Shown: piece after piece, positions 23,806 to 47,700 of the stretch
How positions within the stretch are numbered: the stretch's first letter is position 1
Layout: every line of letters begins with the position of its first letter
Assembly: GCA_002286715.1 (NCBI GenBank)
Contig: NSJX01000015.1
Coordinates: forward strand, 63,313 to 127,312
DNA: 64,000 nt
Reading direction: 5' to 3'
Origin: Dentipellis sp. KUC8613
Lineage: Eukaryota > Basidiomycota > Agaricomycetes > Russulales > Hericiaceae
The notes under the pieces: generated by a model
Database searches by the model: none
What the model was told of the DNA's origin: nothing
The model's input: the letters and a program-made list of their open reading frames with translations, nothing else
Made by a program: the position numbers and the translations under genes

Positions 23806-23925
23806 TATAAAGGTGCAGGCCTCGCTCTATACATGTATCTTGCCCCTCATCCCTAGTTCAAATCCATGTGAGTATATCTCCTTTGTATGAGTTTCTGCTT
23901 CATAAGATTGATCACCATATTCTAG
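23806..23925 (+). promoter_or_regulatory. Core promoter and 5'UTR intron of A1
   Basis: TATAAAGG at 23806-23813, then a GTGAGT donor at 23868 and a TCTAG acceptor at 23925 (58 bases), both before the A1 ATG. The same order (TATA box, about 55-70 bases, GTGAGT intron, ATG) occurs in all six cassettes. Confidence 0.65.
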
Positions 23926-23977
23926 CTCCCATAAGTCTATACCAAGAGATTAACTCGTCCCACTCTCCTTCCTCATC

Positions 23978-24702
23978 ATGTCGAAACATTCTCCAAACTC
24001 ACCGAACGCTGGCGTTCTTAACTCTGCACACGACTCCAGCCCAGCCGTCTCTGCCTCGCATCAGCCTGCTAAGAAACGGAGAGCGGCCCGTACCGCGAGC
24101 CAGGAACGAAGGGACATCGCGCGTGTCCTAGAAGAAGTCGCTGCTTTTGCAGAGGCGAACGCTCCCGCCGAACGAGAGTGGCGTACGTTGCAAAGGGAGT
24201 GGGGATGCTACCCTTGGCAAGCGCGACCCAGAACGCGTCGCGAAGAGCTGCAGAGGTTTCCCGCCTGTGAGTTTATTTATCTGTTGGATCGACAGTCACT
24301 GACGGAAGACTAGTGTGTAATGACTTTGAGTCGTTCGAGAAACAAATGGCGCGAGTGGATAGACGGGCGAAGGAACCAGATGAGCTGCTTTATCAAATTT
24401 GGGACTTCATGAATGAACGCAAGCGAGCTTTAATGGATCAAGAATTTGAGGCCAGAATGAAAGAAAACGATGAAAGTCACTCTCGTTTTCGACAAGGCAT
24501 CAGAGAACTTTACCAGATGGGAGAACGAATGCAACAATTAACTCGTGCCAATGATGAATATAGCCAACGTGTTCTCACGGAAGTCCAGATGGCCCAAGAT
24601 TTGGCGGATCGCACGGATGAAGTCCGTCAATATGGCTTGAATCCCGCACCACCGAGGCAGAGGAATTATCACCTTGGACGAGCAGGCGGGAATACTCATT
24701 GA
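23978..24702 (+). CDS. A1: A-type cassette protein, basic N-terminus and coiled coil
   Basis: Exons 23978-24266 and 24314-24702 (47-base intron, phase 1) give 225 residues. The N-terminal 60 residues are Ser/Pro-rich with a basic patch (KKRRAARTASQERR), a possible nuclear localisation signal. The family core follows: REW and WGCYPWQARP, RRELQ-type RREELQRFP, and, right after the splice, LCNDFESFEKQM. The C-terminal half is charged and predicted coiled coil, ending near DEVRQYG. No known domain recognised. It converges on B1 with 90 bases between stop codons. AATAAA at 24787-24792 abuts the B1 stop, so the A1 transcript should run into B1. A4 is almost identical in the first 95 residues. Confidence 0.78.
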
Positions 24703-24792
24703 TCTTCGCACATGGGTAGATAGGCACTGTTATAAGCGCACGTACAGGAGATAGGATAACATGTATTCAGAGACAATAACGACGACAATAAA

Positions 24793-26007
24793 TCAAGTAT
24801 ATGAAAGATCTAATGGCCCGTACTTATCCTTGTAGCAGCGTAATTCTGCTTCAGTACGTTGTAGCGCTGCATACGTATGATTCCGCTGCAGCGTGATATT
24901 GTGCAGCTCCATCTCCCGGGTAATCAAATTAGCATTGGAGTTCGTCAATTCATTCTCTCGGACCGCAATTGTGGCTTTCGCACGATCTAGTTTGGCCTGT
25001 ATATCTGCGCATTGCATCCTCAGCTGGTCTCTTTCGGCTATCAGGTGCCCCTGTGAATCTGTTTGAGCATAGACTTCACTTTGATGAAAGCAGTTTTGAC
25101 GTACTTCTTTCCTTTTCCCATTCATGAGCTGCGCCTCTACGTTATTCAAGCGATATTGGGTGGCACTGCACTTTTCCTCTAATGTCTTGATCACATTTTC
25201 GTCCCTTTCGAAGCGTGCGATTGCTAAACCAGCCGTGAATCTCCGTGGTCACCACAAACCGGATAATGCGACGCACCTCCTGCGAGTGCCGTCCTATTAT
25301 TGTATTCTTGACCATACTCCAATTGAGGAAGTTTTCCCTTGATGATAGCGAGATGATTCTTATCGTTCGCGCGGCGATTAGCAGCGCTTTTCGCCATCCT
25401 TTCCTTCTGCTCAGCAGTCCTAGGCTTCATCTTACCGCGGGCCGATGCAGTGTTACCGTCAGCAGCCTGAATCGGATCTTCTGCGGGTTCGGCCCTCGCT
25501 TCGCGCAGAGCCACAGCATCCTGCGAAAGATGTAAAGCTTGACGCTGTCTAGAACCTCGAGTATTGCGGTCGTCTTCGGGATTATAGATCCATGGGCCCG
25601 TGTCTCGCAGACTGTCGTGCACGGAGTTCACCGAGAACTGGGATTCGTAGTGAAAGACCGGCACCTCGTGCTGGTATGCGGAAACCTGAAACTCAGATGC
25701 TGAGGCTTCCCAGGGCTCGGGCGTGACAGATCGTGCCGGAGCACGGCTCTGCAAAACCGCAGCAGATTTGTATAGTGTCGGAGCGGGAGCGTAGGTCGAT
25801 GACCCAGTAAGAACAGAGCCGAAGTTATTAACCCTGAACGGGCTTTGTTGGTAAGGGTTACTATGTTGCGTGCGAGACGGTGATCGCGACGTACTATAAA
25901 GACGTCAGTCTCAGATTTTGACTGAGAAGCGATCATACTTACGGCTGGTTACGGTAGAAGTCTACATCCGGGAACGCACTTGTTCCGAGGTATTGATGTG
26001 GTAGCAT
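24793..26007 (-). CDS. B1: B-type cassette protein, bHLH-like plus coiled coil
   Basis: Exons 26007-25943, 25893-25277, 25223-25105 and 25050-24793 give 352 residues. The start MLPHQYLGTSAFPDVDFYRN is shared by all B proteins. Residues about 110-150 hold the invariant FHYESQFSVNSVHDSLRDTG. Residues 180-240 resemble a basic helix-loop-helix: NRRANDKNHLAIIKGKLP could be the basic region and helix 1, and RTALAGAIARFERDE helix 2, with the domain split by an intron. The Glu that contacts E-boxes in classical bHLH proteins is Ala here. A coiled coil (about 240-345) follows. The 54-base third intron keeps the frame and is inferred from B3 and B6. A TTTAAGACC box lies about 145 bases upstream. Probably a nuclear dimerising protein; inference only. 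Confidence 0.72.
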
Positions 26008-27657
26008 TATAGGAAATATTTATTAGAGGGATGGGGTATGAACTCGTTACCGTTGTTTCGTATGGCGTGCCGGCGCCGAATTAGCTAGAGGAGTGAGACG
26101 TGATAGAGGTGAGGACGACTGCGATAAGCCTTGGGCTTGGATCATGGTCTTAAATGGACCGGCGGTCGTTCCGCCCTTCTCTGCGTTATTGTCATACAGG
26201 AAAGTGTCGTGGCGACGAACGAGCCCGTACCATCTTCCTTCAACAACAAGGTCGTGAGGGGAGATATGCCCGGTCATTGACGATTGAATAGGGCTTGACT
26301 AGACAAAAAAGTACTCGATAGCCACTGAAAAATCGGATACACAGGTGCTGTGCAGTGTGCGACTTCCCGTAGCGTCGACATCGGTGCCTACGAAGCAGGA
26401 TGCATCAGTGTTTCCAGGGACGGGATGGAGAGATGGATAGTTACAACACAAAAAACATCCTGCGCGCACTCAGGAGCTCTTATCACGTTTGCGACAAATC
26501 GTTGGGCGATGCTATTCGAGTGAAGCTGTGATCGAACTGTGAAACAATAAGCACAACTGGAGCACAATTCAAAGTTCGCACCTGGAAATGCAGGTTCTCT
26601 TCGCTGAACTTCACGAATACGCAGAGATTACTCTGAAAGGCTATATCCCTGGCATGCGATGAAGTGTTGTGGCCACCGTAGTCACAGTCAAGCCAGTTCG
26701 GCGCTCAAGCGCTCATCCAAAGCGCGGTATTCAGCGGGCCGCGTTAGCGCCGGTTCTGATGACCGGCGCCGGCCCACGGCACGCCTCAACCACGAATCAC
26801 TTATTTCTGCAATCAACATTTCTATACACACCATGTACTGGATTGAGTGCAAAAAGCTCGGAAGGTGAGTACCCACATGCTCTATAATCACGGTCGTCTC
26901 CAGATTCCTCTCGAAAAGACAAGGACTGCCGTACTGGATGCCGCTTCCGAATAGGTAACAAAGACTCGGAGATCGCCCTCTCCCTTGAGTTCTGCATCGA
27001 GCGTATGTATTTGGCGAATGTCTGGAGTAGGTACTGGGATGTGATCAATCATAGCTTGAGATAGAAGGTGATCATGATTTGCCTGAGTACCCCCAACAGC
27101 AACATTTTCAGGACAGCCTCGAAATTTGAAGGGCCCCTACCACACCGGGACACGGACTCGGATGCATTTCCGGACAGTGCACAAACACTTACAGACTTTG
27201 ACTTTCCTCTAGCTTTCAACGACAAACAAAACAACCCCATGGACGGGGGGTGCGTCCCGTATCCCACCGTAATATCCGTGTCCGATCTTGCAGTCCATTT
27301 CTATCAGGTACACTATGTAGTTCGAGTGAGTCAATACTCTCACACTGTTGGCACATAGATCTGGCGGAACAAGAGCTGCCGCAATGGGTGCGTTTCCGGA
27401 TAGGGCACAAAGGCCCCCGCGTTCGGCGTTGACATGCTCTCCTCCTTGATTCCAATTGCAGGTAGGACAATTCCGTAGCCTCAGGCTGATCTCAAGGATT
27501 CTGGTTGTAAACGAAATGGTGGACCGCGGCAAAGCTCGATGACCTGTCGAGCTTGTGCAGTTGGGAGCTTTGCGACTCGGAGGCGCCATGGACATGAACA
27601 GGCTTGGAGCGGCCTCCATAGACATGCTTTGTGCCCAATGAGGGAACTATATCAAGA
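26008..27657. other. Spacer between cassettes 1 and 2
   Basis: Contains the B1 promoter (TTTAAGACC on the minus strand near 26150; motif ccggcgccgaattagctaga near 26075), a spacer segment repeated in other cassettes (26350-26430), a GC-rich motif (26700-26775), and two versions of the conserved upstream block (26900-26966 and 27365-27412). This spacer therefore looks internally duplicated. No gene supported. Confidence 0.55.
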
Positions 27658-27773
27658 TATATAAATGGTGAGTGTCGCTTCGTTGACGCATTTCATGACG
27701 TCTCGCTGATTACTGAAGTGAGTATGCCTGTCATACGAATATCCGCTTCATAAGGCTGATCTCTGCATCCTAG
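27658..27773 (+). promoter_or_regulatory. Core promoter and 5'UTR intron of A2
   Basis: TATATAAAT at 27658-27666, GTGAGT donor at 27718, CCTAG acceptor at 27773 (56 bases). Confidence 0.6.
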
Positions 27774-27825
27774 CTACCACTGGATTATACGGAAATATAT
27801 ACGCTTCCCACCTTCCTTCCTTATC

Positions 27826-28570
27826 ATGTCGAACTGTCCTCTGGATCCACAGAATGCCGGCGTTTTCTGCACGGTGCCCGACTCCGGCCCAATTACCCCT
27901 TCTTCGCCTGTGCCTATCAACCGACGGGGAGGCGTCCTTCACAGCCGCACTACCTCACCTCCGAAACCAAAACGAAGGCAGAGCGGGCGTCTCCCAATAG
28001 ACCTGGCTGCCTTTGCAGCGGAGAACGCTCACGCCGAACGAGAGTGGCGTAAGGTGCAAAGGGAATGGGGATGTTACCCTCAGCAAGCGCGACCGAGATC
28101 GCGTCGCGAAGAGCTGCAGAAGCTGCCCGCGTGTGAGTCCGTCTCATTCTCGTGCCAATAGCCATAACCACTCATCGAGCAGCTACATAGTGTGCAATGA
28201 TTTCGAATCATTTGATAAACAAATGGTGGAAGTAGCGAACAACACGAAAGACATTGGCCTGGTTTCTGAAATCCGAGCCTTCATGGATGAACGCACGCGA
28301 TCTTTGAAACGACAGGAAGATGAAGCTGAGAGGAAAAGAAGTGAGGAGAAATTCTCCCATATGATGCAGGACCTGGAGGAATTTCGACAGGAAAGCATCG
28401 CGGAGATCAAGCAATTCAGAGAAGATATACACAAGCGAAGCGAAATGCTCCAGCAAACAACAGATCGAGTGCAAAACCTGGCTCACGATGTCCGTCAGTT
28501 TGGTGTGAGCTGTGCTCTATCGAGACGGAGGGTTCGTAGCGCAGCGACGAGAGGAAGAAGTGGTCACTAG
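27826..28570 (+). CDS. A2: A-type cassette protein
   Basis: Exons 27826-28132 and 28191-28570 (58-base intron, phase 1, same site as in A1) give 228 residues. N-terminus MSNCPLDPQNAGVFC resembles A1 and A4, followed by a basic stretch (KPKRRQSGR). The core is conserved (REW, GCYPQQARPRSRREELQKLP, LCNDFESFDKQM). The tail is a strongly charged coiled coil (ERQEDEAERKRSEEK-like) ending HDVRQFGVS and an Arg-rich end (RRRVRSAATRGRSGH) not seen in A1. It converges on B2 with 94 bases between stops. Frame intact; function unknown. Confidence 0.76.
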
Positions 28571-28664
28571 TCCACTGATTACAGACACTCTAGCATTGTC
28601 GTTATGTAGCCGTAAATACAGTGTTCGATCTCATGGACACAGAAAATCACAGACGACGATATGA

Positions 28665-29848
28665 TTATAGAAAAGTATGAAACGATTGGATACTTGGCCC
28701 GTACGTATCCTTATAATAGCGCAATTCTGCTTCGGTGCGTTGCAGCGCTGCGTGCGTGTAGCTATATTGTGCTTCACTATTTTGTAATTGTATCACTGCA
28801 TTCGCCGATTCTGTTTTGCGTTCAGCTTTCAGTCTTTCTATCTCCGCTTCTGATCTTGCACATCGAACTTGTAGGTTGTTCCTTTCAACCAACAGGGACT
28901 CCTTTGCATCTGTGTGAACGGTTGATCTTCGTGAAAGCAAAACGTCACGTACTCGCTGTACTTTCTCATCTGCGAGCTGCTTTTCTACGTTCTTCAAACG
29001 GGTTTGGATAGCACTGCACTCCTTGCGTAGCGCGTCAAGCTCTTGTTCGTCTTGGTCGAAACGCACGATTGCTAAACCAGCCGGCATCAGCGTCCGTCCT
29101 CACAATATGATTACTGTTAGAACATACCTCCTGCGAGTGCCGTCCTGTTATTGTACTCTTGACCGTACGCCAAGGGCGGAAGCCTTCGTTTGATGATACT
29201 CAGATGATTCTTATCGTTCGCGCGGCGCGTCGCAGCACTCTCTGCCATCCGCAGTTTCTGCTCAGCGGTCCTTGGCTTCATCTTACCGCTGACCTTTGCA
29301 GAGCTGCTGCCACCAGTACTGTTCTCCTCGCCTCCAGTTCCCACTCCGTGTAGCGCGACAGCAGCCCGCGACGTACGCGGAGCTTGACGCTTTCCCGGGC
29401 CTCGTGCATCGCAGTCACCATCGGGATCATAGACCCATGGACCCGTGTCTCGCAGACTATCGTGCACGGAGTTCACAGAGAACTGGGACTCGTAGTGAAA
29501 GACTGGCATCTCGTGCCGGTATGCGGGGACCTGGAACTCAGACGTCGCAGCCTCCCATGGTTCGGGCGAGACCGATCGTGCCGGAGTATGGCCCACCGAA
29601 AACGTAGCAGAGCCGTGCGGCGTTGGGGCGGGAGCATAGTTAGAAGCAATCAAACCGGAGACAGGATTAAAAACCCTGGATGGGCTTTGTTGATATGCAT
29701 TAGTATTTTGTGTAAGAGACGGTGATCTCGACGATCTACAGGAATGTCAGCATCGGGAACAGATCAGAGATTGGCGTACTCACGGTTGATTATGATAGAA
29801 GTCTACGTCAGGGAACGAGTTCGTCCCAAGGTATTGATGCGAATACAT
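28665..29848 (-). CDS. B2: B-type cassette protein, bHLH-like plus coiled coil
   Basis: Exons 29848-29784 (65 nt as in all B genes), 29735-29128, 29071-28953 and 28901-28665 give 342 residues. Start MYSHQYLGTNSFPDVDFYH. It carries FHYESQFSVNSVHDSLRDTG and the bHLH-like segment (TRRANDKNHLSIIKRRLP, then RTALAGAIVRFDQDE). The 51-base third intron (GTACGT...GCAAAG) preserves frame, so it could also be read through. C-terminal coiled coil with LKAERKTESANAVIQLQNSE. The box TTTAAGGCC lies about 147 bases upstream on the minus strand. Closest to B3 in the N-terminal half. Confidence 0.72.
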
Positions 29849-30619: not shown

Positions 30620-31420
30620 CAATGCAGCACGTGCCATCCTCCCGCCGCCGCCCTCAACGCTGTCCAGATCTGCATGACCGCCGAGCGCATCATCGCCGTA
30701 CAACATGTGTATGCCGCGCTCTGCAGCCTGCCTGATGCAGAATTCCTCACAGAACAGCCCGCAGGCGCGAGGGAATGGCTCGGGATGCTCATGGATCCGT
30801 CCGTGCAGTATTCACGGCTGGCGTGCTCCCTGCATAGGCGCGCAGTGGGTACGAGGCGTGGGGGCGATGGAGGGGCGTCATGAACATCTGGGTTGTGGGA
30901 TCAAACCGTGAATGAAGATACAAACCGAGAAACTTTCGGTCCAGGTGCATTCGCTGTTGGTTTCGAGACGAAATGATGGAATAGTAACTGACGCGAGTGC
31001 GGCGTGGGGAGCGGGTAGAATGGCGGTGGCGGTGGACGTATGCAATGCAATTGGAGAATCAGACGCAGGATTTGTTGAACAGGAGTGTGTGGACGTGGGA
31101 TGTGTGCCATGTACGCGACGGAATTTACGAAGGCGTTGCGAGCCGGTACGTCCATAGTGAATCCAGCTTTCTTGGTCTTCTCTTTTGACCTCGGCCTGAA
31201 AGGGACAGCCGAAATCAAACACCCAATCATGGGACCGAAAACAATGCACGGAAACCGCGGGATCAGAGGTGCGTCCGAGTCGTGTCTTCTGCAGCTGTCA
31301 GTCCGAGGAAGATGCCTGAACAGACTCGGGTCCCAGCGGCGCGAGCAGGTATAGAGTTTTCGATGTCAATGCGTCCACAGATAAGCGCGACGTCGTGTTG
31401 AACTCACTGGTGAGAGTTTT
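30620..31420 (+). pseudogene. Aldehyde dehydrogenase pseudogene, 3' half
   Basis: Matches ALDH exons 5-8 and their introns (22040-22905). Recognisable pieces in order: the region around the catalytic Cys (gtccagatctgcatgaccgc near 30665), cttcggtccaggtgc near 30942, the exon that ends in the LRVG-type splice near 31145, and the last exon with cagcggcgcgagcagg near 31335. Deletions, stops and frame changes break the coding sequence (for example a shortened segment near 30800 and a stop at about 30975). The first half of the gene is absent. It lies between cassettes 2 and 3. Confidence 0.88.
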
Positions 31421-31571
31421 TCCTCCCTACAAAGGCTGCGTCGTAGACGAGAGCTTGGGTAGCACAGTGCTGGCCGCAGTGTCAAGCCAGTGTTGCCGCT
31501 GGCGGTGTATCTCAGCGCTAAATCAAGTCGGCACTGAGCGGGCCGGTTTGGTGCCCGTGTCGCTCAATGAG

Positions 31572-31660
31572 TCCTTCCTTCAGTTCCTTCCTTCAGTTCC
31601 TTCCTTCAGTTCCTTCCTTCAGTTCCTTCCTTCAGTTCCTTCCTTCAGTTCCTTCCTTCC
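31572..31660. repeat. 13-base tandem repeat (ttccttccttcag)
   Basis: About seven copies of a 13-base unit, starting shortly after the GC-rich spacer motif (gagcgggccgg near 31530). Confidence 0.9.
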
Positions 31661-32093
31661 GACTACCAATGGATTTTCTAGCAATGGAATCGAAGTCTCT
31701 TGCAGCAAAACTTCAGACCATCTTCACTGCGAAAGGCTCGTCAGGTGAGTGTCAGTGTACCCACGAAACCATCGTCTCTAGATTTCCATCGAACAAGGAT
31801 TACCGCTCTGGGTGTCGTGTCCGAATAGGGTACAAGGAAAGTCGGAGATCGCCCTCACCCTCTGCCCAGAGCGTAGATCTTGGAAAATAAATCACTCTTG
31901 AAATCGGTACTGATTCGCCCCAGGCTTTGAATCTCTGGAGGCACAATCCTCGGCGACTCTGGAACCCATGTGAGTCAAAACGCGGATTCAGATTGTACAA
32001 CAAGTCTCTCGAAGAACTCCATGAGAAATGTACGGCTGTCGGCTGTAGACAACGATGATACATTGTACCCGAAATGGTTAACGTCTCGCTGTA
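31661..32093. other. Spacer upstream of A3
   Basis: Contains the conserved upstream block (31786-31846), preceded by a GTGAGT...CTCTAG pair (31745-31781) that looks like a small intron or its remnant. No gene supported. Confidence 0.45.
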
Positions 32094-32212: not shown

Positions 32213-32249
32213 AATAATACTTGCACACTCATCCTTGTCTCTCCTTACT

Positions 32250-33140
32250 ATGCCGATCCAGTCTCAAGGCTTCGACACATCCAGTCTTTACTCTGCAGCA
32301 CCCGAGTCTAGACCGGTCATCTCTTTACCGTCCTCGCCGATACAGCGATCTGCCGGCAGCTTCGATAGCCGCACTACATCACCCTCGAAACAGAAACGGA
32401 ACAAGCGCGCATCTCTGCACGAGGATCCGACCCTCGTAGCGGCCCGCGATGCTCGCAGGAAGAAAGAGTTCTACATGCTGCAGAGAGTTTGGGGGTTATA
32501 CCCTTCAAGCGCGAGGCCTAAGACGCGGCGGGAAGAGCTGCAGATGCTTCCTTCTTGTCAGTATATTTTTACCGCGAGTCAGCAGTATCTAATGATCTCT
32601 ATAGTGTGCAACGACTTCGAGTCCTTCGAGAAGCAGATGGAGCATCTCGACAGGACGGTAGAAGATCCCGGACTCTTACCTCAAATCCGTGCTGTGGTGC
32701 GCCAACGCAAGGAGGCTCTGAGACGGCAAGAAGAAGAAGCTCAAATGCACAAACATTGGGAAAACATTTCTCGAACGGCTCAAGGTATCGAAGAGTTCAA
32801 GCGCACTGTCAGTCAATGGGGCGACGAAGTTGCTGAAACTGCTCGATTGGTCCACGAATATGACCAGAGAGCTGAACAGCAGATCAAGAGGGGCTACAGA
32901 ACCTGCCAGCTGATTGGCGAATGCATTTCGGAAACCAATGAGTACATTGGAGCATTACAGGAGTATTCTCAACAGAGTGCTGTCTATATTCAAGATGCAC
33001 GCCAATACATCGACGGAGTCAATTCATATGCACAAGAATGCAATCAATTGGCGCAGAGAGCCCACCAGGTGGAAGCAGGAGCTATCCTGACCAGATATAC
33101 ATCACAGAAGCATCGATACGAAGGAAGGGGCAGCTTCTAG
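32250..33140 (+). CDS. A3: longest A-type cassette protein, extended coiled coil
   Basis: Exons 32250-32556 and 32605-33140 (48-base intron, phase 1) give 280 residues, 50-60 more than its paralogues. N-terminus MPIQSQGFDTSSLYS, then a basic stretch (KQKRNKRASLHEDP) and the core (VWGLYPSSARPKTRREELQ, LCNDFESFEKQM). The extra length is all in the tail, which is a long heptad-like coiled coil with repeated Tyr/Gln residues (for example EYSQQSAVYIQDARQYIDG). Closest to A5 around EHLDRTVEDPGLL. It converges on B3 with 143 bases between stops. Function unknown. Confidence 0.76.
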   Translation: MPIQSQGFDTSSLYSAAPESRPVISLPSSPIQRSAGSFDSRTTSPSKQKRNKRASLHEDPTLVAARDARRKKEFYMLQRVWGLYPSSARPKTRREELQMLPSCQYIFTASQQYLMISIVCNDFESFEKQMEHLDRTVEDPGLLPQIRAVVRQRKEALRRQEEEAQMHKHWENISRTAQGIEEFKRTVSQWGDEVAETARLVHEYDQRAEQQIKRGYRTCQLIGECISETNEYIGALQEYSQQSAVYIQDARQYIDGVNSYAQECNQLAQRAHQVEAGAILTRYTSQKHRYEGRGSF

Positions 33141-33283: not shown

Positions 33284-34617
33284 CTACCAAGTCGTCCCGC
33301 ATCTCTGCCTGAGAGCGCGCAGCTCTTCTTCGGTACGCTGCAACGTCGCATGCGTAGTCCTCGAGTCCGCACGGTGGCAGGATAATTCTGCTTCTGCATT
33401 TGTCAGTTCTGCTTGCGTGTTCGCTAGTGCTGCCTTAGTGTTTTGATGTTCTGCTTTTTCATGCGCAAGTCTCGCCTTCGTGTGGGAGTATCCTGTTTCG
33501 TGATTCGAAACTGCCATCTCCAAGCTTCGATACGCCGCCTCTCTATTCACCAATGCAGCCTTCGTTTTTTCGTGTTCCGCGATGTGATATGCTACTGCAG
33601 CTTTCGCATTTTCTAGACTCGCTTCTGCATTTGCACATTGGATCAGCGACCCGTCTCTCTGGGTTATCAAGTGTCCCTTGAGATTCATATAAGCACTTTT
33701 CTATCACTGAAACGAGGCTGAATCCACTCTCACTTTTTGATCCTTTTCGCTGACGAGCTCCTGCTCTATCTCGCCCATGCGGTGCCTGAGCCCAGAACAT
33801 TCTTGTTCAAGTGCGCGAATGGTCTCCTCATCCTCATTGAAGCGAGCAATCGCTGAACTCAATATCAGCTTCCGCTATCGTCACAGATTGATTGCTACAA
33901 CGTACCTCCTGCGAGTGCCGTCCTATTGTTGTATTCTTGACCGTACGCCAATGGTGGAAGCATACCCTTGATAATGCTAAGATGATTCTTATCGTTCGCG
34001 CGGCGCGTCGCAGCGCTCTCTGCCATCCGGAGTTTCTGCTCAGCCGTCCTTGGCTTCATCTTGCGTGTAGTGCTGCTATCACCGGCTGCATCTTCCATAC
34101 CTTCAGCCCCCGCTCCATGCAGCGCGACAGCAGCCCGCGAAGAACGCGAAGCTTGGCGCTTTCCCGGACCTCGAGCATCACGTTCGTCCTCGGGATTGTA
34201 GACCCACGGACCCGTGTCGCGCTGACTATCATGCACGGAGTTCACAGAGAATTGGGACTCGTAGTGAAAGACTGGCATCTCGTGCCGGTATGCGGGGACC
34301 TGGAACTCGGAAGTTGCAGCCTCCCATGGCTCTGGCGAGACCGATCGTGCCGGAGTATGGCCCGCCGAAAACGTAGTAGAGCTGTGCAGGATCGGGGCGG
34401 GAGCATAGCTAGAATTAGCGAGCCCATGGCCGGTATTACGAACCCTGGATGGGCTTTGTTGATATGCGTTAGTATTATGTGCACGAGACGGTGATCTCGA
34501 CGGTCTACAGGAATGTCAGCATCGGGAATAGATCAGAGATTGGCGAACTCACGATTGATTATGATAGAAGTCTACGTCAGGGAACGAGTTTGTCCCGAGG
34601 CATTGATGTGAATACAT
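33284..34617 (-). CDS. B3: longest B-type cassette protein, bHLH-like plus repeated coiled coil
   Basis: Exons 34617-34553, 34504-33906, 33852-33734 and 33676-33284 give 391 residues. Without the third intron (57 bases, GTGAGA...CTCAAG) the frame stops at once; with it, K is joined to GHLITQRDG, which matches GHLIAERDQ in B1. This is the key evidence for the third intron in all B genes. bHLH-like segment TRRANDKNHLSIIKGMLP. The C-terminal coil is longer than in the others and made of repeats of about 14 residues (EHEKTKAALVNREA, EHQNTKAALANTQAEL). Its TATA-like box has decayed (ttgatg for ttaaat near 34765). As A3 is also longest, the A and B coils may have lengthened together. Confidence 0.7.
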
Positions 34618-35174
34618 TATCAAAGAATGCTGTAGAGTAGAGTCCGGTCGTGGACGTCGTGATCTGTCGTCGAGTATGGCATTCCAGCGCCGAAGTAGCT
34701 AGATTAGTGAGATGAGAGGGAGACGAGGGCAGCTGTGATCAAGGTGAGGCTTGGATTATGGTCTTGATGGACTGTCAGTTGCTCAACCCTTGTTATTGTA
34801 ACATTGGAGAGGGGTGGTGACGAACGAGAGCTTGCGCGCGTCGTCTACGTTCCGCAACACAATCGTGAGGGTACGCGTAGCCAATAAGTTGACAATTGAC
34901 CGGTTCGTGAGTATACAAAAGCAGATCTGACATCTATACTTGACCGCTCGAGCAAGACAATTGCAGGTGCTGTGCACCGACTCGTCGTCTCAGTGCCTGC
35001 GCAGTGGGATGCATCAGTGTTTCCAGGAGCGCGGCAGAAGAATGGATAGTTCCCACGTATATTGTAGTCTGCACAGACTCGGAAAGCCTGGTCATTTGCC
35101 ACTGATACTTGAGAGAGTTGCCGGCGGTTGACTGTTGAAGCCGCGAGGAGACAATAACATGCATGGTCGAGGGA
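34618..35174. other. Spacer after B3
   Basis: Holds the B3 promoter region and a spacer segment (34940-35050) nearly identical to 30170-30290 of the cassette 2 spacer. No gene supported. Confidence 0.5.
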
Positions 35175-35840
35175 TTCGGCAGATCCGATGTCGACGCATT
35201 TACAGATAAGCGCAATGTTGTGTTGAACTCGCTGGAGCGCAGTTATCCCCTCCTGCGAAAGCTGCGTCGTGGACGGGAGCATAGGTATAATTGAACTTAT
35301 ACCTGCTGTCAGCGTGGAGAGGGCATCTGAGTTTCATTAGTCGGGATGATAATTATGAGGAATATACATACCATGTACCCATAATTCATACAGTCCAACG
35401 AAACAATGACTTCGTATATATTGTCTGCTAGATCAACACCACTTCGAACTTGAATTTGGAGGTGAACGTGTCAGTATATCATAATATCACGAAGGCTCGG
35501 ACGGCATTCCCAACGTACAACGCTCGCAGGTCATGATCCATGCTTCCTTCCTGCCTCCGAGATCGTAAACTTATAGATTCAATTTGAAGGAGAGCCAACT
35601 TTCAAGGAGGAGTTCTCGGCGGAGCGTTTGGAAGAAGAGCTTGGAGGCCACATTCAACTTGTTAGCGCTGGCTGCGGCATTTAGCGGGCCGCTCTACCGC
35701 TGTGCTTAGGCTTATGCCGCCGCCTACTGTGGTAAGTACTACTGGTAGCACCCCGGAACGGCCTGAAGACGACCCCGCGCACACGAACACGGATGGTCGT
35801 CGCTGGAAGGTAACTATAGCTTGTGTTGGAACGCCCTCAC
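35175..35840. repeat. ALDH-tail/downstream duplication, copy 2
   Basis: 35180-35283 is a copy of the last ALDH exon (ggcagatccgatgtcgacgc; the terminal tag is kept) with one base missing in cccctcctgcg. It is followed by the same downstream DNA as at 22950-23480. It begins abruptly at the exon, so the rest of that ALDH copy is gone. Confidence 0.9.
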
Positions 35841-36355: not shown

Positions 36356-37092
36356 ATGTCGAAACATTCTCCAAACTCACCGGACGCTGGCGTTCTTAAC
36401 TCGGCACACGACTCCAGCCCAGCCGTCTCTGCCTCGCATCAGCCTGCTAAGAAACGGAGAGCGGCCCGTACCGCGAGCCAGGAACGAAGGGACATCGCGC
36501 GTGTCCTAGAAGAAGTCGCTGCTTTTGCAGAGGCGAACGCTCCCGCCGAAGAAGAACGGCGTACATTGCAAAGGGAGTGGGGATGCTACCCTTGGCAAGC
36601 GCGACCCAGAACGCGTCGCGAAGAGCTGCAGAAGTTTCCCGCCCGTGAGTTCATTTATCTGTTGGATCGACAGTCACTGACGGAAGACTAGTGTGTAATG
36701 ACTTTGAGTCGTTCGAGAAACAAATGGCGCGAGTGGATAGACGGGCGAAGGAACCAGATGGGCTACTTTATCAAATTTGGGACTTCATGAATGAACGCAA
36801 GCGAGCTTTAGAACGTCAAGAAGAAGAGGCCGAAAGACAACAAAACGACGAAAGTATCTCTCATTTTCGACAAGGCATCAAAGAACTTTACCAGATGGGT
36901 GAGGAAATACAACAAAGAACCCGTGCCAACAATGAATATTGCCAACGTGTTCTCACGGAAGTCCAGAGGACCCAAGAATTCGTGGATCGCACGGATAACC
37001 TGGCTTCTGAAGTCCGTGAATATGGTATGAGTCGCGCATCACCGAGGCAGAGGATTTATCACCCTGGGGGAGCAGGCAGGAACACGCATTGA
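36356..37092 (+). CDS. A4: A-type cassette protein, near-copy of A1
   Basis: Exons 36356-36644 and 36692-37092 (47-base intron) give 229 residues. The first 95 residues differ from A1 at only a handful of positions. The coiled-coil tail differs more (ERQEEEAERQQNDESISH instead of the A1 version) and carries a four-residue insertion before SEVREYG. Change is thus concentrated in the coil. AATAAA at 37169-37174 directly abuts the B4 stop, as in cassette 1. 82 bases separate the A4 and B4 stops, the tightest pair in the array. Confidence 0.78.
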
Positions 37093-37174: not shown

Positions 37175-38399
37175 TCAGGTATATGAGAGATCTAATGGTC
37201 CATACTTATCCTTGTAGCAGCGCAGTTCCGCTTCAGTATGTTGTAGCACTGCATATGCATGATGCCGCTGCAGCGTGCTATTGTGCAGCTCCATCTCCTG
37301 GGCAATCACCTTAGCATTGGAGTTCGCCAATTCATTTATTTGGGCTGCAATTGTGGCTTTTGCACGATCCAGTTCGGCTTGTAATCCTGCGCGTTGCATC
37401 TTCAGCTGGTCTCTTTTGGCTATCAGGTGCCGCTGTGGATATGTTTGAGCATGGATAGCACCTTCCTGAAAATAGACTCGACATACTTGTTTCTTTCTCT
37501 CATCTATGAGCTGCAATTCTACGCTATTCAAGCGATCTTGGATGGCACTGCACTTTTCCTCTAATGCGTTGATCGCATTTTCGTCCCTTTCGAAGCGCGC
37601 GATTGCTAAACCAGCCGTGAATCTCCGTGGTCACCACAAACTGTATAATGCGACGCACCTCCTGCGAGTGCCGTCCTATTATTGTATTCTTGGCCATACT
37701 CCAATTGAGGAAGTTTTCCCTTGATGATAGCGAGATGATTCTTATCGTTCGCGCGGCGATTAGCAGCACTTTTCGCCATCCTTTCCTTCTGCTCAGCAGT
37801 CCTAGGCTTCATCTTACCGCGGGCCGACGCAGTGTTACCGTCAGCAACCTCAATCGGATCTTCTGCGGTTTCGGCCCTCGCTTCGCGCAGAGCCACAGCA
37901 TCCTGCGAAAGACGTAAAGCTTGATGCCTTCTAGGACCTCGAGTGCCGCGGTCGTCATCGGGATTATAAATCCATGGGCCCGTGTCTCGCAGACTGTCGT
38001 GCACGGAGTTCACCGAGAACTGGGATTCGTAGTGAAAGACCGGCATCTCGTGCTGGTATGCGGAAACCTGAAACTGAGACGTTGCGGCCTCCCATGGCTC
38101 TGGCGTGACCGACACCGTCTGACCGCGATCCGGCGAACGTGCCGCAGAGCTGTAAGACTTTGGAACGGGAGCGAGAATTGCGGAGGTGGGAAGACCAGAG
38201 CTGATACTATGAACCCTGGACGGGCTTTGTTGGTATGCATTAGTATTCTGCGTACGAGATGGTGATCTCGACGATCTACAAGAGCAAAGCAAGAGCGTCA
38301 GCTCCGAGAATATGGAAACGATTGGCGTGCTCACGGCTGATTGTAATAGAAATCAACATCAGGGAAGGAGTTCGTCCCGAGGTATCTATGTGGTTGCAT
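37175..38399 (-). CDS. B4: B-type cassette protein, near-copy of B1
   Basis: Exons 38399-38335, 38275-37659, 37605-37487 and 37432-37175 give 352 residues, the same length as B1. Start MQPHRYLGTNSFPDVDFYYN. The bHLH-like segment is identical to B1 (NRRANDKNHLAIIKGKLP). Differences from B1 gather in two places: residues 30-80 before PEPWEAATSQFQV, where B4 resembles B6 (RGQTVSVTPEPWE), and the coil. This mosaic suggests exchange between cassettes. TTTAAGGCC box about 155 bases upstream. Confidence 0.73.
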
Positions 38400-41179: not shown

Positions 41180-41214
41180 CATTTGCGACACATTCACCGT
41201 CGACTCTTCCCACT

Positions 41215-41955
41215 ATGTCGAGCTGGGCTCAAGATTGCAATGACTCGATAACTATTCACTCAGCGTCGCCTGAACCTCCTCAAACAGTTTCATTGCCTAC
41301 ATCCACAGACCGGCGAAGAGGCCCTTCGAGCCGCACCGCTTCGTCTACAAAGCAGAGACGAAGAAAGGACGCCCATTTTGGATACGACCCGGCCACCACT
41401 GCGGCACATGATGCGCGCCTTGCGGACGAGTCCTCCAAGGTGCAAGGGGAATGGATCGCCTACCCCTGGCGCGCGAGGCCCAAGTCGCGTCGCGAAGAGC
41501 TGCAGAGGCTGCCCGTATGTGAGTTGGATTCCTTGCTCGGTCAACGGATACTGACGGAGTGGCTAGTGTGTAATGATTTCGAGTCGTTTGATAAACAAAT
41601 GGAGCATCTGGACGGTACAGTAGAAGATCCTGGACTGCTTTCTGAAATCCGTGCCGTGATGAAGGAGCGCAGGGAAGCCTCGAGGCGGGAAGAAGATCAG
41701 GCCCGGATGCAGGAACACAATGAGATCCATGCTCAAATGACCCAGTGTGCGCAGGAATTGCGACAGGGAATCGATGAATTGGCGCGCAATGTTGAGCAGT
41801 GTCTACAAGGAGTCAATACATATGGCCAAAACCTTGACCGGCTCGCCCAAAAAGGCGAAGAAATTGCCCGAGACACGGACGAGTATGTCATGCACAAAGT
41901 TCAACGTCGCCGAAGGGTTCACCAATCTGGGCACGAGGAGAGGCATAACATTTGA
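41215..41955 (+). CDS. A5: A-type cassette protein
   Basis: Exons 41215-41518 and 41567-41955 (48-base intron, phase 1) give 230 residues. N-terminus MSSWAQDCNDSITIHSASPE is closest to A6. Basic patch KQRRRKDAHFGYDP. Core: WIAYPWRARPKSRREELQRLP, LCNDFESFDKQM; the usual G of WGCYP is replaced. The tail contains EHLDGTVEDPGLLSEIRAVM, shared with A3, and ends Arg/His-rich (VQRRRRVHQSGHEER) without the VREYG motif. It converges on B5 with 118 bases between stops. Function unknown. Confidence 0.76.
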   Translation: MSSWAQDCNDSITIHSASPEPPQTVSLPTSTDRRRGPSSRTASSTKQRRRKDAHFGYDPATTAAHDARLADESSKVQGEWIAYPWRARPKSRREELQRLPVCELDSLLGQRILTEWLVCNDFESFDKQMEHLDGTVEDPGLLSEIRAVMKERREASRREEDQARMQEHNEIHAQMTQCAQELRQGIDELARNVEQCLQGVNTYGQNLDRLAQKGEEIARDTDEYVMHKVQRRRRVHQSGHEERHNI

Positions 41956-42073
41956 CCATTGTGAACAGTAATACTGCCATCTGAATCTTGTTTACTAGTA
42001 GAGTACGAGTTCGTCCCCGACGGAGATGAATCCTTTGAGATGATCTATGGTGTTAGCTACGAGCAATATACGG

Positions 42074-43262
42074 TCAATTAGCACCTTCTTTCTCCCGATA
42101 ATAGCGCAATTGTGCTTCATGGTGTTGAAATGCGGCATATATATCACTGTATTGTGCTGTCTTGCGGTCCAATTCCGACCGTGTGTAGACTTGTCGCGCA
42201 TTTGTAACCGTCAGAGCTGCTCGTAAGTCTGCTTGGATTGCTTTTATACTTTCCCGCTGCACCAGCAATACGTCTCTTTCAGCCATCACGGTTGCCTGAG
42301 CGTTGGTGTCAGCTACTCTATCTTCGTGACAACTTGAGGCTAGTTTCATACACACTTTTTGGGTTCTCTCCGTTGCAAGCTGCTCTTCTATTTCTTTCAG
42401 ACGACGTTCGTTCGTGAAACATCTATGTTTCAGGCTGCGAATGGTCTCTTCGTCCTTATCAAAGCGAGCAAGTGCTAATCAAACATGAGCCTCTGTCGTC
42501 TTGCGACTCTTGTTAAGTAGATAGAACAACATACCTCCCGCTAGGGCCGTCCTATTGTTGTACTCCTGCCCATACGCTAGCGAAGGGAGCCTCTCTTTGA
42601 TCATACTCAGATGATCCTTGTCGTTTGCACGGCGGTTCGCAGCGCTCCTTGCCATGCTCGCCTTCTGCTCAGCAGTCCTTGTTTTATGAATGCCAGTCTT
42701 TGAGGTATTGCTGTCGTCTGCGGGAATCGAGTTGACAGACACTGCTGCGCCTGTACCCTCGTGATTAGTAGAGGCAGCTTGCGTAGAGCGCGAAATCTGG
42801 CGTTTCACGGGAACGCGACTTTCACGGTCGTCATCGGGGTTATAGGCCCATGGTCCCGTATCTCGCAGGCTGTCATGCACGGAATTCACTGAGAATTGAG
42901 ATTCGTAGTGAGATGTTGGCATCTCATGCCGGTAAGTGGGGACCTGGAATTCAGACGTTGCGGCTTCCCATGGCTCGGACGTGACCGATCTCGCTGGAGA
43001 ATAGTCCGGTGAGTACGCGACAGTGTTGTTCAGTGCTGGGACAGGAACGTAGGTTGAAGAAGTCAAACCGGTGCCAGTACTATGAACCCTAGACGGGACC
43101 TGATGATATGCATTAGTATGTTGCGCTCGGGGTGGTGATCTCGACGTCCTACAAGAACATTAGTCGCAGTGTTTGAATGAAATGCGAATACACTCACAAC
43201 TGGCTATGATCCAGGTCTACATCCGGGAACGCATTCGTTCCAAGGTATTGATGTGGTTGCAT
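42074..43262 (-). CDS. B5: B-type cassette protein, bHLH-like plus coiled coil
   Basis: Exons 43262-43198, 43148-42535, 42474-42356 and 42295-42074 give 339 residues. Start MQPHQYLGTNAFPDVDLDHS. The motif before the linker reads SHYESQFSVNSVHDSLRDTG (Phe to Ser at the first position). bHLH-like segment NRRANDKDHLSMIKERLP and RTALAGALARFDKDE. The third intron (60 bases, GTGTGT...GCTCAG) keeps the frame if retained. The coil is shorter (LKEIEEQLATERTQK; RREKEGAN-like end). CTAAATAA box about 153 bases upstream. Frame intact. Confidence 0.72.
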
Positions 43263-44431
43263 TATCGAGACGTGTTCTCGGAAGGGAAGGGTATGTTAGT
43301 GAACGTCGTGACTTGTCGATGAGTACGGTGTACCGGCGCCGGATTAGCTGGAGTAAAGAGGGAGGAGAGAGGCGAGCTCGAATGTGATCAGCCGGGGGCT
43401 TAGATCATGGTCCTAAATAAACCGACAGTCGTTCAGTCCCACTCTTCGTAGTTGTTACACTAGACCGAGTTATGGCAACGGACGAGAGCCCGTATCATCT
43501 GGCTTCAATAAGAAAGTCGTGAGAGCGTGCGTAGCCGATCTATTGACAATTGAACAACTCGTGAGTATACAAAAGCTGCGTATCCGATAGCGGTGCTGTA
43601 CACCTTCTCGTCGCCTCAGTACCTACGAAGAAATGCGTCAGTGTTTCCAGGGACACGGCAGGATCATGAATTGTTGGGAAACACACATCAACCAGTACGC
43701 AAATGAGTAGCATCCCTCCCTTCCTCGTCATTTCCGGCTTCTTTCTGGAGAGAGATGAAGCTGGAAAACAATAAGCACACCTGGGGCATGAGCTGTTTTA
43801 GCACTGCCCCACTCAGCTCCGGACTAGAAAGAAGATGATAATTTAAATACTTGCATACGGAATCCTCAAAAGGCGTTGAGAGGGCCTCGGGCAGGAATAC
43901 TTCGCTGGCGTCGTGGTATACGCCGGCAGCAGTGCCGGCGTATTTTCGGGCGCCGCCGGCAAGGACCGAGTCCACATCTCATGAGTCCTCTTGCGTACTC
44001 AGGCTTTACTTTCAATTTGACTCTACTCGCCTCGTTCCTGTAGTGGCTCTACATTGGCCGTTCTGAATGTGAAATATTCACGAGGTGAGCATGAACAGCC
44101 TGACGTTATTGCGACGACGACCGTTCACTCTAGGTTCCATCGAAAGAACAAGGACTACCGTCCTAAGCCCTATTTCCGAATAGAGTACAAGGATTCAAAA
44201 GTAATGTACCTTTTGTAACTGCTTCATGAATGTCTTGAGTTTAGAAGACAGACTGGAGTAACATGTCAGCTGTGAACTGCTACGAAGCAATGTTTGTTGG
44301 CTCTCGAGTTCACATCAGTCGAAATGCAAACCATGCAGGAGGATTTTCTCGGGAGAGCGCCGTAACAAACGCACAGGCGTTGGCCGCAGCCCCCGGGCTA
44401 CATTGTGCTCAATATGGACAATGTCTTGATA
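43263..44431. other. Spacer between cassettes 5 and 6
   Basis: Holds the B5 promoter (43330-43425), the shared spacer segment (43590-43665), a perfect hairpin (43918-43943), and the conserved upstream block (44138-44193) preceded by a GTGAGC...CTCTAG pair (44083-44134). No gene supported. Confidence 0.5.
43918..43943. other. Perfect 11-bp stem, 4-base loop hairpin
   Basis: atacgccggca, loop gcag, tgccggcgtat. Both arms match completely. It lies in the cassette 5/6 spacer, roughly where other spacers carry the GC-rich motif. Confidence 0.85.
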
Positions 44432-44557
44432 TATAAAAGTGCGTATCTCGCTGTGATGCCCATACTTTGAGTCACTGCCCAGGCCACTGAGGTGAGTGGC
44501 CCCCGTGACGCTCCCCGAGCCCCGTTCGCTAAATCACAATGTCCGTCGTTGTTACAG
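44432..44557 (+). promoter_or_regulatory. Core promoter and 5'UTR intron of A6
   Basis: TATAAAAG at 44432-44439, GTGAGT donor at 44492, TTACAG acceptor at 44557 (66 bases). Confidence 0.65.
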
Positions 44558-44596
44558 TATTACACGCGCATACGCTATCTCTCGTCTCTCCTTGCC

Positions 44597-45314
44597 ATGT
44601 CGAGCTGGTCTGCAGGCTGCGACTCCATCACCACTCTTTCCTCAGCGTCGCCCGAACCCAATCCAACCATCTCATCACCTGCGCCTCCGAGGAGAGACCC
44701 TCACAGCCGCAGTGCATCGCTTTCGGAAAAGAAACGAAAGAATAAAGCACGCCTTCCAGAAGACCCGGCCGTCGTTGCAGCATGCAATGCTCGCGCGGCA
44801 GACGAGTTTTACAAAGTGCAGAGGGAATGGGGCTGCTACCATTGGCGTGCACGGCCCAAGTCGCGTCGCGAAGAGCTGCAGAGGCTGCCCGCGTGTCAGT
44901 TCATTTACATATTGCACCAATAATCGCTAATTGGGTAGCCATATAGTATGCAATGACTTCGAGTCTTTCGATAAACAAATGGCGTATAATTCGCCGGAAG
45001 ACCACGGATTGCACGCTGAAATCCGCGCTGAGATGCACGAGCGCAGGAAATTGGAGATGCAGAAAGAACGAGAAGCCCGAATGCAGCCAGGCAGAGAGAT
45101 TCACGCACGCATGATGCAGCGTGCGGAAGCGCTGCAGCGCGACGTCGAGAAGCACCTTGAAAATATCAGTGTGTATGAGCAAAATGTGGACAGATTGGAG
45201 CAAAGGATGGGAGAATTTGCACACGAAGTACGCGAGTACGGTGTGCAGAAGATAATTCGTGGACGGATGGCCCATCAGATCGACTTCGGGCGCCAAGGGA
45301 GGCACAGTCTTTAA
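44597..45314 (+). CDS. A6: A-type cassette protein
   Basis: Exons 44597-44894 and 44947-45314 (52-base intron, phase 1) give 221 residues, the shortest A protein. N-terminus MSSWSAGCDSITTLSSASPE pairs it with A5. Basic patch KKRKNKARLPEDPAVV. Core: REWGCYHWRARPKSRREELQ and LCNDFESFDKQM. The coil is rich in Met, Arg and Glu (ERRKLEMQKEREARMQPG) and ends HEVREYGVQ. It converges on B6 with 148 bases between stops, the widest pair. Function unknown. Confidence 0.76.
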
Positions 45315-45462
45315 TATGTTTTCTAGTTTCCTATGTATTTACGGAAAGCTACTACAATTTGATCATTACTGGAGGTATTATCATTACTACGCAAAGCGTC
45401 AATCCTACGATGCGCTGTAACACAGTGATGCAATAATCAGGTCGCTTCGTACGGTAGCAGTT

Positions 45463-46612
45463 CTACTGCGAAAGCATGCCCTTGTAATAACGCAGCTCTG
45501 TTTCAGAGCGTTGCCAAGCAGCACATACATTGTTGTATTGCGCTGTCTTAAGTTGCAGTCTTGCTTCGCTCACGGCTAGTTGTGATTGTAGAGATGTCTC
45601 AGAGGCTTCAAAGGCTGTTCGCATGCTTGCCTGTTGCGCAAGCAGGTCATTTCTTTCAATCGTCGCAGATTCCTGGACTTTCGCGTGAGTAATCTCATCC
45701 TCACACTGACGGGGCCATCGTACATACCTTTTGAGCCTCAAGCTGACGTTCGACGTCTTCTAGACGACGTTCATTAGAGCGACATCTGTGGTCTAGGTTG
45801 CAAATAGTCTCTTCATCCCTGTCAAAGCGAGCGATCGCTGAACCAAAGATGAGTCTCTGCCTCCACCTTCGAGATGATAGAATAGTATACGTACCTCCCG
45901 CTAGGGCCGTCCTATTGTTGTACTCCTGCCCATATGCCAGTTGAGGGAGCCTTTCTTTGATGATGCTCAAATGCTCCTTGTCGGTTGCACGGCGATTTGC
46001 AGCACTCTTCGCCATCTTCTTCTTCTGCTCTGCGGTCCTCGGGTGAGTAGTGCGATTCTTTGAGGTAATGCAGCCATCTGCGTGAATGAAGTTAGCAGAC
46101 ACTCCGCCAATACCCTCGTCATTCCCAGAAGCAGCCTGCGAAGAACGCCGTTTCGCTGGAACGCGAGTGTCACGTTCGTCATCGGGATTATAGACCCATG
46201 GTCCTGCATCTCGCAGGCTGTCGTGGACCGAATTGACCGAGAACTGAGACTCGTAGTGGAAGACCGGCTTCTCGTGTTGATAGGCGGGGACTTGGAATTC
46301 GGACGTTGCAGCCTCCCATGGTTCGGGTGTGACCGATGCCGTCTGACCACGACTACGCGAAATCGCAGTAGAGTTATACAGCGTTGGTACAGGAGCATAG
46401 ATAGCAGAGCCAGCGATTCCAGAGTCGATATTATTAACTCTATACGGGTTTTGCTGATACGCATTAGTATTTTGCACGCGAGACGGTGATCTCGACGACC
46501 TACGAGAACGTCAGTACCGGGATGAAGGGCAAGATCGACGGACTCACGATTGGCCACGGTAGAAGTCTACGTCAGGGAACGCGTTCGTCCCAACGTATCG
46601 GTGTGGTTGCAT
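45463..46612 (-). CDS. B6: B-type cassette protein, bHLH-like plus coiled coil
   Basis: Exons 46612-46548, 46499-45895, 45837-45728 and 45672-45463 give 329 residues. The third intron is 55 bases (GTATGT...GTCCAG), not a multiple of three, so it must be spliced to join QK to ESATIERND. This is independent support for the third intron besides B3. Start MQPHRYVGTNAFPDVDFYRG. bHLH-like segment NRRATDKEHLSIIKERLP and RTALAGAIARFDRDE. Exon 3 is nine bases shorter than in the other B genes. Upstream TTAAG box near 46772. It is the last cassette; beyond it the repeat pattern ends. Confidence 0.73.
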
Positions 46613-47700
46613 TATACGGGATTAGCGTTGAAAAGATAGAGTACAATCGTGAATGTCGTGACCTGTCTTTCAGTGTGGGATCCCGGAGCAGGATCGAGCT
46701 AAGAGGGTGTGTATGAGAACGTAGAGAAGGTGTCGAGTTGTGGTGAGCCTGAGGCTTGGATCGTGGTCTTAAGTAGAGGTGCCGACTCGTAGGACATCTC
46801 TGAGTTACTGCGACACAAAAGGCAGCGTTGCTTGAAGCTGAACTATACAAACTCGCACCATAGGGTTGCAACTGGATCCAACAACAAGGTCGTGAAGATC
46901 TGTGCGACCTAGCAGATCAGTCGTTGCGACGAGTATACAATAGCAGACCTATTTGCTATCATTCTGATCAGAGGAAGCGCTGTGCGCTCTTTCATTGTCT
47001 CACTATCCGTGAATGCGAGGTTTTCAGTGCTACCAGATAGAAAGACAAAAAAGAGTAGCGGTGTTACCTATACAACTGAGCGAAAGCTTGAATAATCAAT
47101 CCTTCGTGGATTGGCTTTCGGAGGAGTCAGAAATGTTGACGGGCTGCGAAACAATAGTAAGCATGTCCAGAGAGCAAATATTCACACCTTCAAGGTCGCG
47201 CGGGGTGAGATTTGATCAACCCGAAACATAGCGAGATGCTCTATCTTATAGTGACTCCTAGCATCATGGTAGAACTTGAAGGAGGAATGCGTTGCGGGGA
47301 AATTGAAGATGTCAATATTTCACTGTCACATGATACTGCATCACGTGCCATGGGGGATATGCTGCTATCTCTTCGTCTTTTGGGCACTGTCCTCCTTGGA
47401 CTCATATCCTCGCCCCACTCATCCTGAAGGTACGTGTTAGCATCTATCATTCAGCGTAACTTAACTTATTTGCTTTCGTAGCTTTTCGCAGTCTGGCGGA
47501 CCGGCTAACGACGTCTGAGTACAAGGGCTTGGTTGACGTGGCGTTGCTAAATCAGTCTTCGTCTTTCTGATACTCTATCGGCCAAACACTTATAACTGCT
47601 GGCTCAGGTACCAGAGAGTGTCTTCGTTGGCGACCCCCGCGACAAACGACTGAAGACTTTATGCGCGTAGCCTGACCCGGCGTCTGTCTATCCTTGCCTC
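46613..47700. other. Right end of the array and promoter region of the SUN gene
   Basis: 46680-46790 is the B6 promoter. From about 46900 no cassette sequence is recognised. Short frames at 47013-47450 are unsupported. No TATA box is obvious before the next gene; a pyrimidine-rich leader (gtctgtctatccttgcctc) precedes its ATG. Confidence 0.45.

Follow-up and report, generated by a model that had tools for sequence, protein, structure and literature searches.

Coils that grow and shrink together in paired genes of the mushroom Dentipellis

The wood-rotting mushroom Dentipellis sp. KUC8613 (Russulales, Hericiaceae) carries on one contig (C45) a series of two-gene cassettes, in each of which a gene that we call A converges on a gene that we call B. 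We analysed a window of 64,000 nucleotides (C45:63313-127312) and searched the genome to which it belongs (34.1 Mb, 171 contigs). Across the nine pairs of the contig, the C-terminal coils of A and B grow and shrink together, a pattern suggestive of paired regulators or recognition proteins not described before. We propose, with a probability of roughly 60%, that the A and B proteins of every cassette assemble into a nuclear complex of their own, a cognate A:B coiled-coil heterodimer, and that the cassettes form parallel, insulated pairs.

Coil lengths agree between the two genes of a cassette

Coil length, measured between a fixed motif and the stop so that tails are included, agrees closely between the two genes of a cassette (Table 1). 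The Pearson correlation is 0.96 with a slope of 1.06 (n=9, permutation p about 0.0003), and the standard deviation of the A-B difference, 4.8, was equalled by 4 of 20000 permutations. Adding two pairs from Dentipellis fragilis gave r=0.95 (8/20000 permutations); in one of these (114/110) a 17-residue stretch was removed by hand as a presumed retained intron, the figure being 127 otherwise. For the D. fragilis B gene g7970, whose coil has 154 residues and whose A partner was absent from the A matches, the fit predicts an A coil of about 150. Sister cassettes, compared as change in A/change in B, gave +52/+52 from cassette 2 to 3, -7/-7 from 5 to 6, -14/-19 from L1 to L2, +4/0 from 1 to 4, 0/+3 from 1 to L3 and +9/+8 in D. 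fragilis, L1 to L3 being cassettes of a left arm described below. Two comparisons served as controls: that of B coils with the A gene transcribed away from them (r=-0.14, n=5) and that of the outer parts of A and B, whose lengths do not covary (rho=-0.56).

The coils also diverge in step. The Mantel correlation between A-coil and B-coil distances is 0.93-0.94 (n=9). With the cassettes of A4 and AL3 left out it is 0.70, or 0.66 on ungapped columns (p 0.002 and 0.005), and that of each coil with its own outer part lies between -0.05 and 0.06. Together, matched lengths and parallel divergence support the pairing of A and B that an earlier note on this DNA had suggested. Heptads are evident in the self-similarity of the coils at shifts of seven, where the mean excess is 0.25 (A) and 0.50 (B); it does not exceed 0.03 at any modulus of 3-6 or 8-11. 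In all nine B coils and seven of the 11 A coils, no more than 3/200 shuffled sequences do as well. A3 and B3 both contain internal repeats at multiples of seven, and hydropathy periodicity is strong in 9/11 A coils (at most 5/500 shuffles).

A probable helix-loop-helix-like core in B

By eye, a basic helix followed by a loop and another helix can be made out at residues 180-245 of B. An AlphaFold model of B4 (P0001; 17 sequences) places a helix of 28 residues at 182-209, a loop at 210-220 and a helix of 124 residues at 221-344, so that a helix-loop-helix (HLH) whose second helix runs into a zipper-like coil is present in this single-chain model. In blocks, the predicted local distance difference test (pLDDT) gives helix 1 values of 77-89 and the loop a value of 57; helix 2 has 78-98 (92-98 over residues 231-340), with a drop to 71 at its final block. 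The mean for the whole chain is 64, with residues 1-174 mostly below 50.

We compared the B core with two HLH profiles, one built from HLH proteins of the same genome and the other from these plus six further sequences. A search of the genome for HLH scored 13 candidates and matched eight places, none of them on C45 or C116. In hhalign alignments the Arg-Arg of the basic helix, which is invariant in 17/17 aligned B proteins, and the end of helix 1 fall in register. The glutamate of the basic HLH (bHLH) basic region reads E-boxes; its column holds Ala in all 17 B proteins and Glu in all eight of the HLH loci found in this genome.

Another contig carries a B-like gene (C88, around 356490-356729) that is divergent from B and has a more canonical HLH helix 2. 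It matches the B-core hidden Markov model at 36.9 bits across the whole domain, where the E value of 1.5e-13 holds for a one-target search only. It also matches the HLH profiles, scoring 24.4 (own-genome) and 29.7 (with the six added sequences), with 0/300 residue shuffles as high in each case, and because it matches both it forms a bridge from B to bHLH proteins. Its match to Max is suggestive at most (E 0.88). We rejected the matches of the same peptide to TAL effectors (best E 2e-8), which added up from many repeats that each lay below threshold.

Like bHLH-leucine-zipper factors (PF00010; Max/Myc/USF type), B has a basic helix ending in P, a loop and a helix 2 that passes straight into a coil. 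Unlike them, it escapes Pfam detection, has Ala for the E-box Glu and a coil of 104-168 residues, and is found only in Dentipellis, in multiple copies and with a linked partner gene. We conclude from the model and the profile comparisons that B is probably a remote, noncanonical bHLH-zipper-like protein outside formal PF00010 membership.

The A protein has an N-terminal basic cluster in all 11 copies, followed by a conserved block of ~46 residues (residues ~67-112). It is predicted to have one long helix (121-210), with pLDDT blocks of 82-97 up to residue 200 and 68 in the last block. The basic cluster and the HLH-like domain of B lend support to the nuclear character that the earlier note had inferred for both proteins. 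BLASTP found no similarity between A4 and B4 (best E 1.3).

Nine convergent pairs on one contig

The six cassettes of the window, with A on the plus and B on the minus strand, are real and intact. All six A starts and six B ends fall where the earlier note had placed them, and the features that it had reported, a single phase-1 intron in A, a 65-nt first exon in B and the absence of disabling mutations, recur in 6/6 copies of each gene, all frames being open once the introns are placed. Its count of six pairs holds for the window and fails for the whole array, since the contig has nine. A genome search with A1 and B1 revealed a left arm at C45:37645-52375, ~11-26 kb beyond the left edge of the window, with three B(+)/A(-) pairs (L1, L2 and L3, the last comprising BL3 and AL3) and two A genes with no adjacent B, all open. 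This arm lies in mirror orientation and its pairs are still convergent, so that all nine pairs of C45 share this arrangement and the contig holds 11 A genes. Within pairs, the 3' ends are separated by 82-148 bp in the window and by 90-129 bp in the left arm. Copies of the cassette share 60% (the floor of the tool) to 97% DNA identity in a repeat listing by self-BLAST, and C45:46022-49962 is an inverted copy of C45:86419-90334 at 87% identity.

Conserved blocks, fast coils and mosaic histories

Constraint differs by domain. In B, the mean ratio of nonsynonymous to synonymous differences per site (pN/pS) over 36 pairs is 0.14 in residues 77-130, 0.26 in the HLH and 0.61 in the coil; in A it is 0.27 in the middle part and 0.67 in the coil (55 pairs), and 0.73 in the N-terminus (54 pairs). 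With conserved blocks at 0.14-0.27 and open frames in 11/11 A and 9/9 B genes, the selection on the pair suggested earlier is supported, and a ratio near 1 throughout, which would have spoken against it, is not what the domains show. For A1/A4 the ratio of nonsynonymous to synonymous substitution rates (dN/dS) comes to 0.83 overall and, for the coil by itself, to 0.98, and short stretches of some pairs reach 1.0-1.9; relaxed constraint could be at work in that coil and in those stretches.

Synonymous differences shift abruptly along the gene (p<=0.001) in 5 of the 36 B pairs and 3 of the 55 A pairs; the breakpoints fall in residues 36-209 of B and 96-102 of A. Synonymous differences are greater in the inner (coil) half in 29/36 B and 36/55 A pairs, although the pairs are not independent. 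Thus the parts of these genes have different histories.

Relatives of A and B

Our protein searches rely on shared 5-residue words, so that distant relatives may escape them. With B, 16 of 16 matches came from KUC8613 or D. fragilis (7999 candidates scored), and a search with the B core alone gave nine matches, all from Dentipellis (77 candidates). With A, eight of nine matches are named Dentipellis and the ninth is unnamed (7997 candidates scored). Judged from gene names rather than DNA, A and B are also adjacent in D. fragilis (g4996/g4997, g8738/g8739 and g11479/g11478, A first). In the B tree, four D. fragilis proteins form one supported clade, a fifth joins B5/B6 at lower support (93/90) and two more group with the genes on C116; from these placements, duplication probably went on in both species.

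The earlier note recognised neither family, and the Pfam cut-off was indeed reached by none of 18 deposited B and none of nine deposited or unnamed A proteins. Sub-threshold matches were mostly to coil families, the best being that of P0023 to Fib_alpha (E 1.4e-4), which at 22.5 bits stays below the 29.9 required, and a sequence search of the PDB gave nothing below E 0.26 for B or 0.099 for A. Membership of a transposon-encoded or already characterised family, which the note had named as fatal to its proposal, did not emerge: Pfam found no transposase, integrase or other element domain in the same 18 B and nine A proteins, the terminal repeats around the cassettes not having been searched. Among the titles and abstract beginnings listed for Dentipellis, KUC8613 and related topics, none concerned the A and B genes.

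Weighing a dedicated complex against joint duplication

Several results weigh against a cognate complex of the kind we propose. As regards the coils, hydropathy periodicity was significant in none of the nine B coils, and heptads are claimed in B because of the self-shift similarity. The nine cassettes share ancestry, and with all of them 6/6 Mantel comparisons are positive (0.56-0.94). Leaving out A1 together with A4 and AL3 gives a coil-coil value of 0.68 (p 0.014), or 0.47 on ungapped columns (p 0.043), and with four of the nine cassettes the coil-coil value (0.53, p 0.12) is lower than that of A coil with B outer part (0.76, p 0.04). Under the deposited gene models, in which B1 and BL3 retain intron 3, the length correlation falls to 0.80 (p 0.013); leaving out cassette 3 as well lowers it to 0.48 (p 0.13). 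Sisterhood of A2 and A3 is unsupported in the A tree, so the contrast of cassettes 2 and 3 follows the B tree only, and two A genes of the contig stand with no adjacent B. As regards the HLH-like core, a search that allowed E up to 1 found PF00010 in 0/18 of the deposited B proteins, and with E up to 10 it was found in none of two B models, the C88 peptide and a composite of the B core. Compared directly with the two HLH profiles, the B core matched weakly, 7/300 and 3/300 column shuffles scoring as high; B and C88 combined left 6/300 and 1/300. Fold searches gave no useful match, and Foldseek and VIA-align on the single-chain model of B listed no bHLH, which decides nothing.

Some of these results would be expected if A and B merely duplicated together and the covariation of their coils came from the linkage of adjacent 3' ends and from shared history. 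The small gaps between those ends (82-148 bp), the mosaics and the few independent lineages agree with this, as does the loss of significance of the coil-coil correlation with four cassettes. Linkage alone, however, does not add the same number of residues to two different genes, and the coil-coil correlation persists after recent duplicates are dropped. Equal change in both genes therefore makes linkage and shared history hardly sufficient for the lengths; they could lie behind part of the correlation of coil distances. As the whole explanation we consider joint duplication quite improbable.

Proposed function

In the dedicated complex that we favour, the A and B coils of one cassette would fit in length and sequence and form an in-register cognate coiled coil, and the coils of other cassettes would fit less well, giving a set of insulated and presumably orthogonal pairs. 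Their coil would join the HLH-like domain of B, which may bind DNA, with the conserved block of A in the nucleus. The convergent order puts the coil-coding 3' ends ~100 bp apart, in one short inner block that could be inherited or exchanged as a unit, the outer halves being homogenised. The most likely role of such a complex would be that of a regulator, with A steering or restraining B.

Alternatively, the cassettes may be selfish. B (or A) would be harmful and its cognate partner would neutralise it by co-assembly, which the matched coils would secure. Drive would then show in the tandem growth of the array, in the fast coils and in gene conversion. A mosaic, multi-copy family found only in Dentipellis, with coil pN/pS of 0.61 and 0.67 and coils matched in length, would suit such a conflict. 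There is also a parallel in the wtf drivers of Schizosaccharomyces, which make poison and antidote from one gene and form a lineage-restricted, multi-copy family with gene conversion. The likeness to A and B extends to repeats, inasmuch as one report on wtf (PMC11892871) describes matched repeat number as affecting the compatibility of the two proteins, a mismatch in the repeats of exon 6 disrupting it. A and B, in contrast, are encoded by two separate genes with no detectable similarity and are not alternative products of a single gene. Moreover, two A genes lack an adjacent B, and the HLH-like core fits a regulator. Because of that core we rate the regulator role above poison and antidote, and we regard a selfish system as unlikely.

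Non-self recognition would make opposite demands on the coils. In homeodomain (HD1/HD2) mating-type pairs, as PMC8305134 and PMC4915694 present them, the two genes lie in divergent order, dimerise through an N-terminal domain and do so between non-self partners. By analogy, A and B of different alleles or cassettes would dimerise and the cognate pair would not. The two systems are alike in their multi-copy two-gene units, in a conserved core, and in fast, probably dimerising specificity parts that lie side by side. The A and B genes differ from them in being convergent, in having their variable parts in C-terminal coils rather than N-terminal regions and in lacking a homeodomain, which Pfam found in none of 18 B and nine A proteins. 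Their cognate coils match in length and co-vary; self pairs therefore appear to fit, the opposite of homeodomain mating-type pairs. Furthermore, none of ten homeodomain matches in the genome lies on C45, and all 18 STE3 matches lie on C1. We consider this kind of recognition highly unlikely. The STE3 receptor cluster occupies C1:2327903-2347652. C95 has homeodomain matches near 27-28 kb, near 323 kb and near 509-511 kb, the first and last of these places being ~480 kb apart.

The earlier note had offered recognition, self/non-self discrimination or regulation as possible roles. Pairing and nuclear features agree with the first idea of paired nuclear proteins, and the matched coils speak against the self/non-self part. 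Two main roles would then remain, insulated regulator pairs or a conflict resembling poison and antidote. A bolder possibility, which we hold tentatively and consider rather doubtful, is that the array represents a new eukaryotic specificity system. It would consist of orthogonal modules in tandem, each joining a noncanonical bHLH-zipper-like protein to a private coiled-coil partner. Matched coil length and sequence would set the specificity, convergent order would keep its two parts together, and heptad gain or loss and inner-block exchange would diversify it; within the genus, such a system would serve recognition or conflict.

Should the predicted binding hold, the nine candidate cognate pairs of this genome are a natural set of coiled coils that evolved together, with known genomic partners and joint change in length and sequence, and the rise of new orthogonal protein pairs after duplication becomes directly testable. 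They may also reveal a mushroom recognition or conflict system outside the mating-type loci, and the convergent order would be a simple genomic means of keeping specificities linked.

Gene models

The introns of A1 to A6 measure 47, 58, 48, 47, 48 and 52 nt, with donors GTGAGT or GTCAGT. All six B copies have four exons, an intron after NNRTALAG and a phase-0 third intron. This third intron is real in B3 because it contains stops, and in B6 because its length is not a multiple of three; in B1, B2, B4 and B5 it was placed by homology. Proteins equal in length to models B2, B3, B4, B5, A4 and A6 are deposited, according to the protein search. The models of A1, A2 and A3 come from this analysis alone.

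Table 1. Paired A and B genes of C45, with exons as window positions (in order of transcription) and coil lengths in residues.
Gene	Span	Exons	Strand	Product (amino acids)	Coil	Deposited protein
A1	23978..24702	23978-24266, 24314-24702	+	225	116	no entry among matches
B1	24793..26007	26007-25943, 25893-25277, 25223-25105, 25050-24793	-	352	123	P0002, retains intron 3
A2	27826..28570	27826-28132, 28191-28570	+	228	113	no entry among matches
B2	28665..29848	29848-29784, 29735-29128, 29071-28953, 28901-28665	-	342	116	P0003, equal length
A3	32250..33140	32250-32556, 32605-33140	+	280	165 (long)	P0025, unnamed, shorter, covers C-terminal part only
B3	33284..34617	34617-34553, 34504-33906, 33852-33734, 33676-33284	-	391	168 (long)	P0004, equal length
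A4	36356..37092	36356-36644, 36692-37092	+	229	120	P0018
B4	37175..38399	38399-38335, 38275-37659, 37605-37487, 37432-37175	-	352	123	P0001, used for AlphaFold model
A5	41215..41955	41215-41518, 41567-41955	+	230	116	P0017, starts earlier
B5	42074..43262	43262-43198, 43148-42535, 42474-42356, 42295-42074	-	339	111	P0005
A6	44597..45314	44597-44894, 44947-45314	+	221	109	P0019
B6	45463..46612	46612-46548, 46499-45895, 45837-45728, 45672-45463	-	329	104	P0007, retains intron 2
L1 (A/B)			-/+		127/130	
L2 (A/B)			-/+		113/111	
L3 (A/B)			-/+		116/126	BL3 model retains intron 3

No 8-10-mer was shared by at least 5/9 B plus at least 5/11 A upstream stretches of 500 bp. One 7-mer, AACAAGG, was so shared (null mean 0), and E-boxes number 0-6 per stretch.

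Dispersed relatives and neighbouring sequence

Outside C45, a distant convergent A/B pair lies at C116:158207-160053, its B deposited as P0026; the frame of its A is broken within exon 1, and exon 2 of this A is short. C116 also carries a second B gene, deposited as P0027. A single open A gene is found on C94 (L064 3899-4722), a contig on which the genome search gave no B match.

Within the window, exons of an aldehyde dehydrogenase (ALDH) gene occupy 20760-22890 (+), with a PF00171 match in three of the ten frames tried. Their 3' part is repeated at 30988-31454 with 71% identity; the one frame tried there (31320-31745) had no Pfam match, and a weaker ALDH piece lies at about 35106-35248. To the left of the array, further duplications link 1-850 with 1056-3108 (73%) and 6547-7212 with 12098-12785 (87%). 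The right flank holds ordinary genes on the plus strand, namely a SUN-domain (Sad1_UNC) gene at 47671-49610, an ALG11_N gene at 56497-57186 and an FMN-dependent dehydrogenase gene at 59150-59851.

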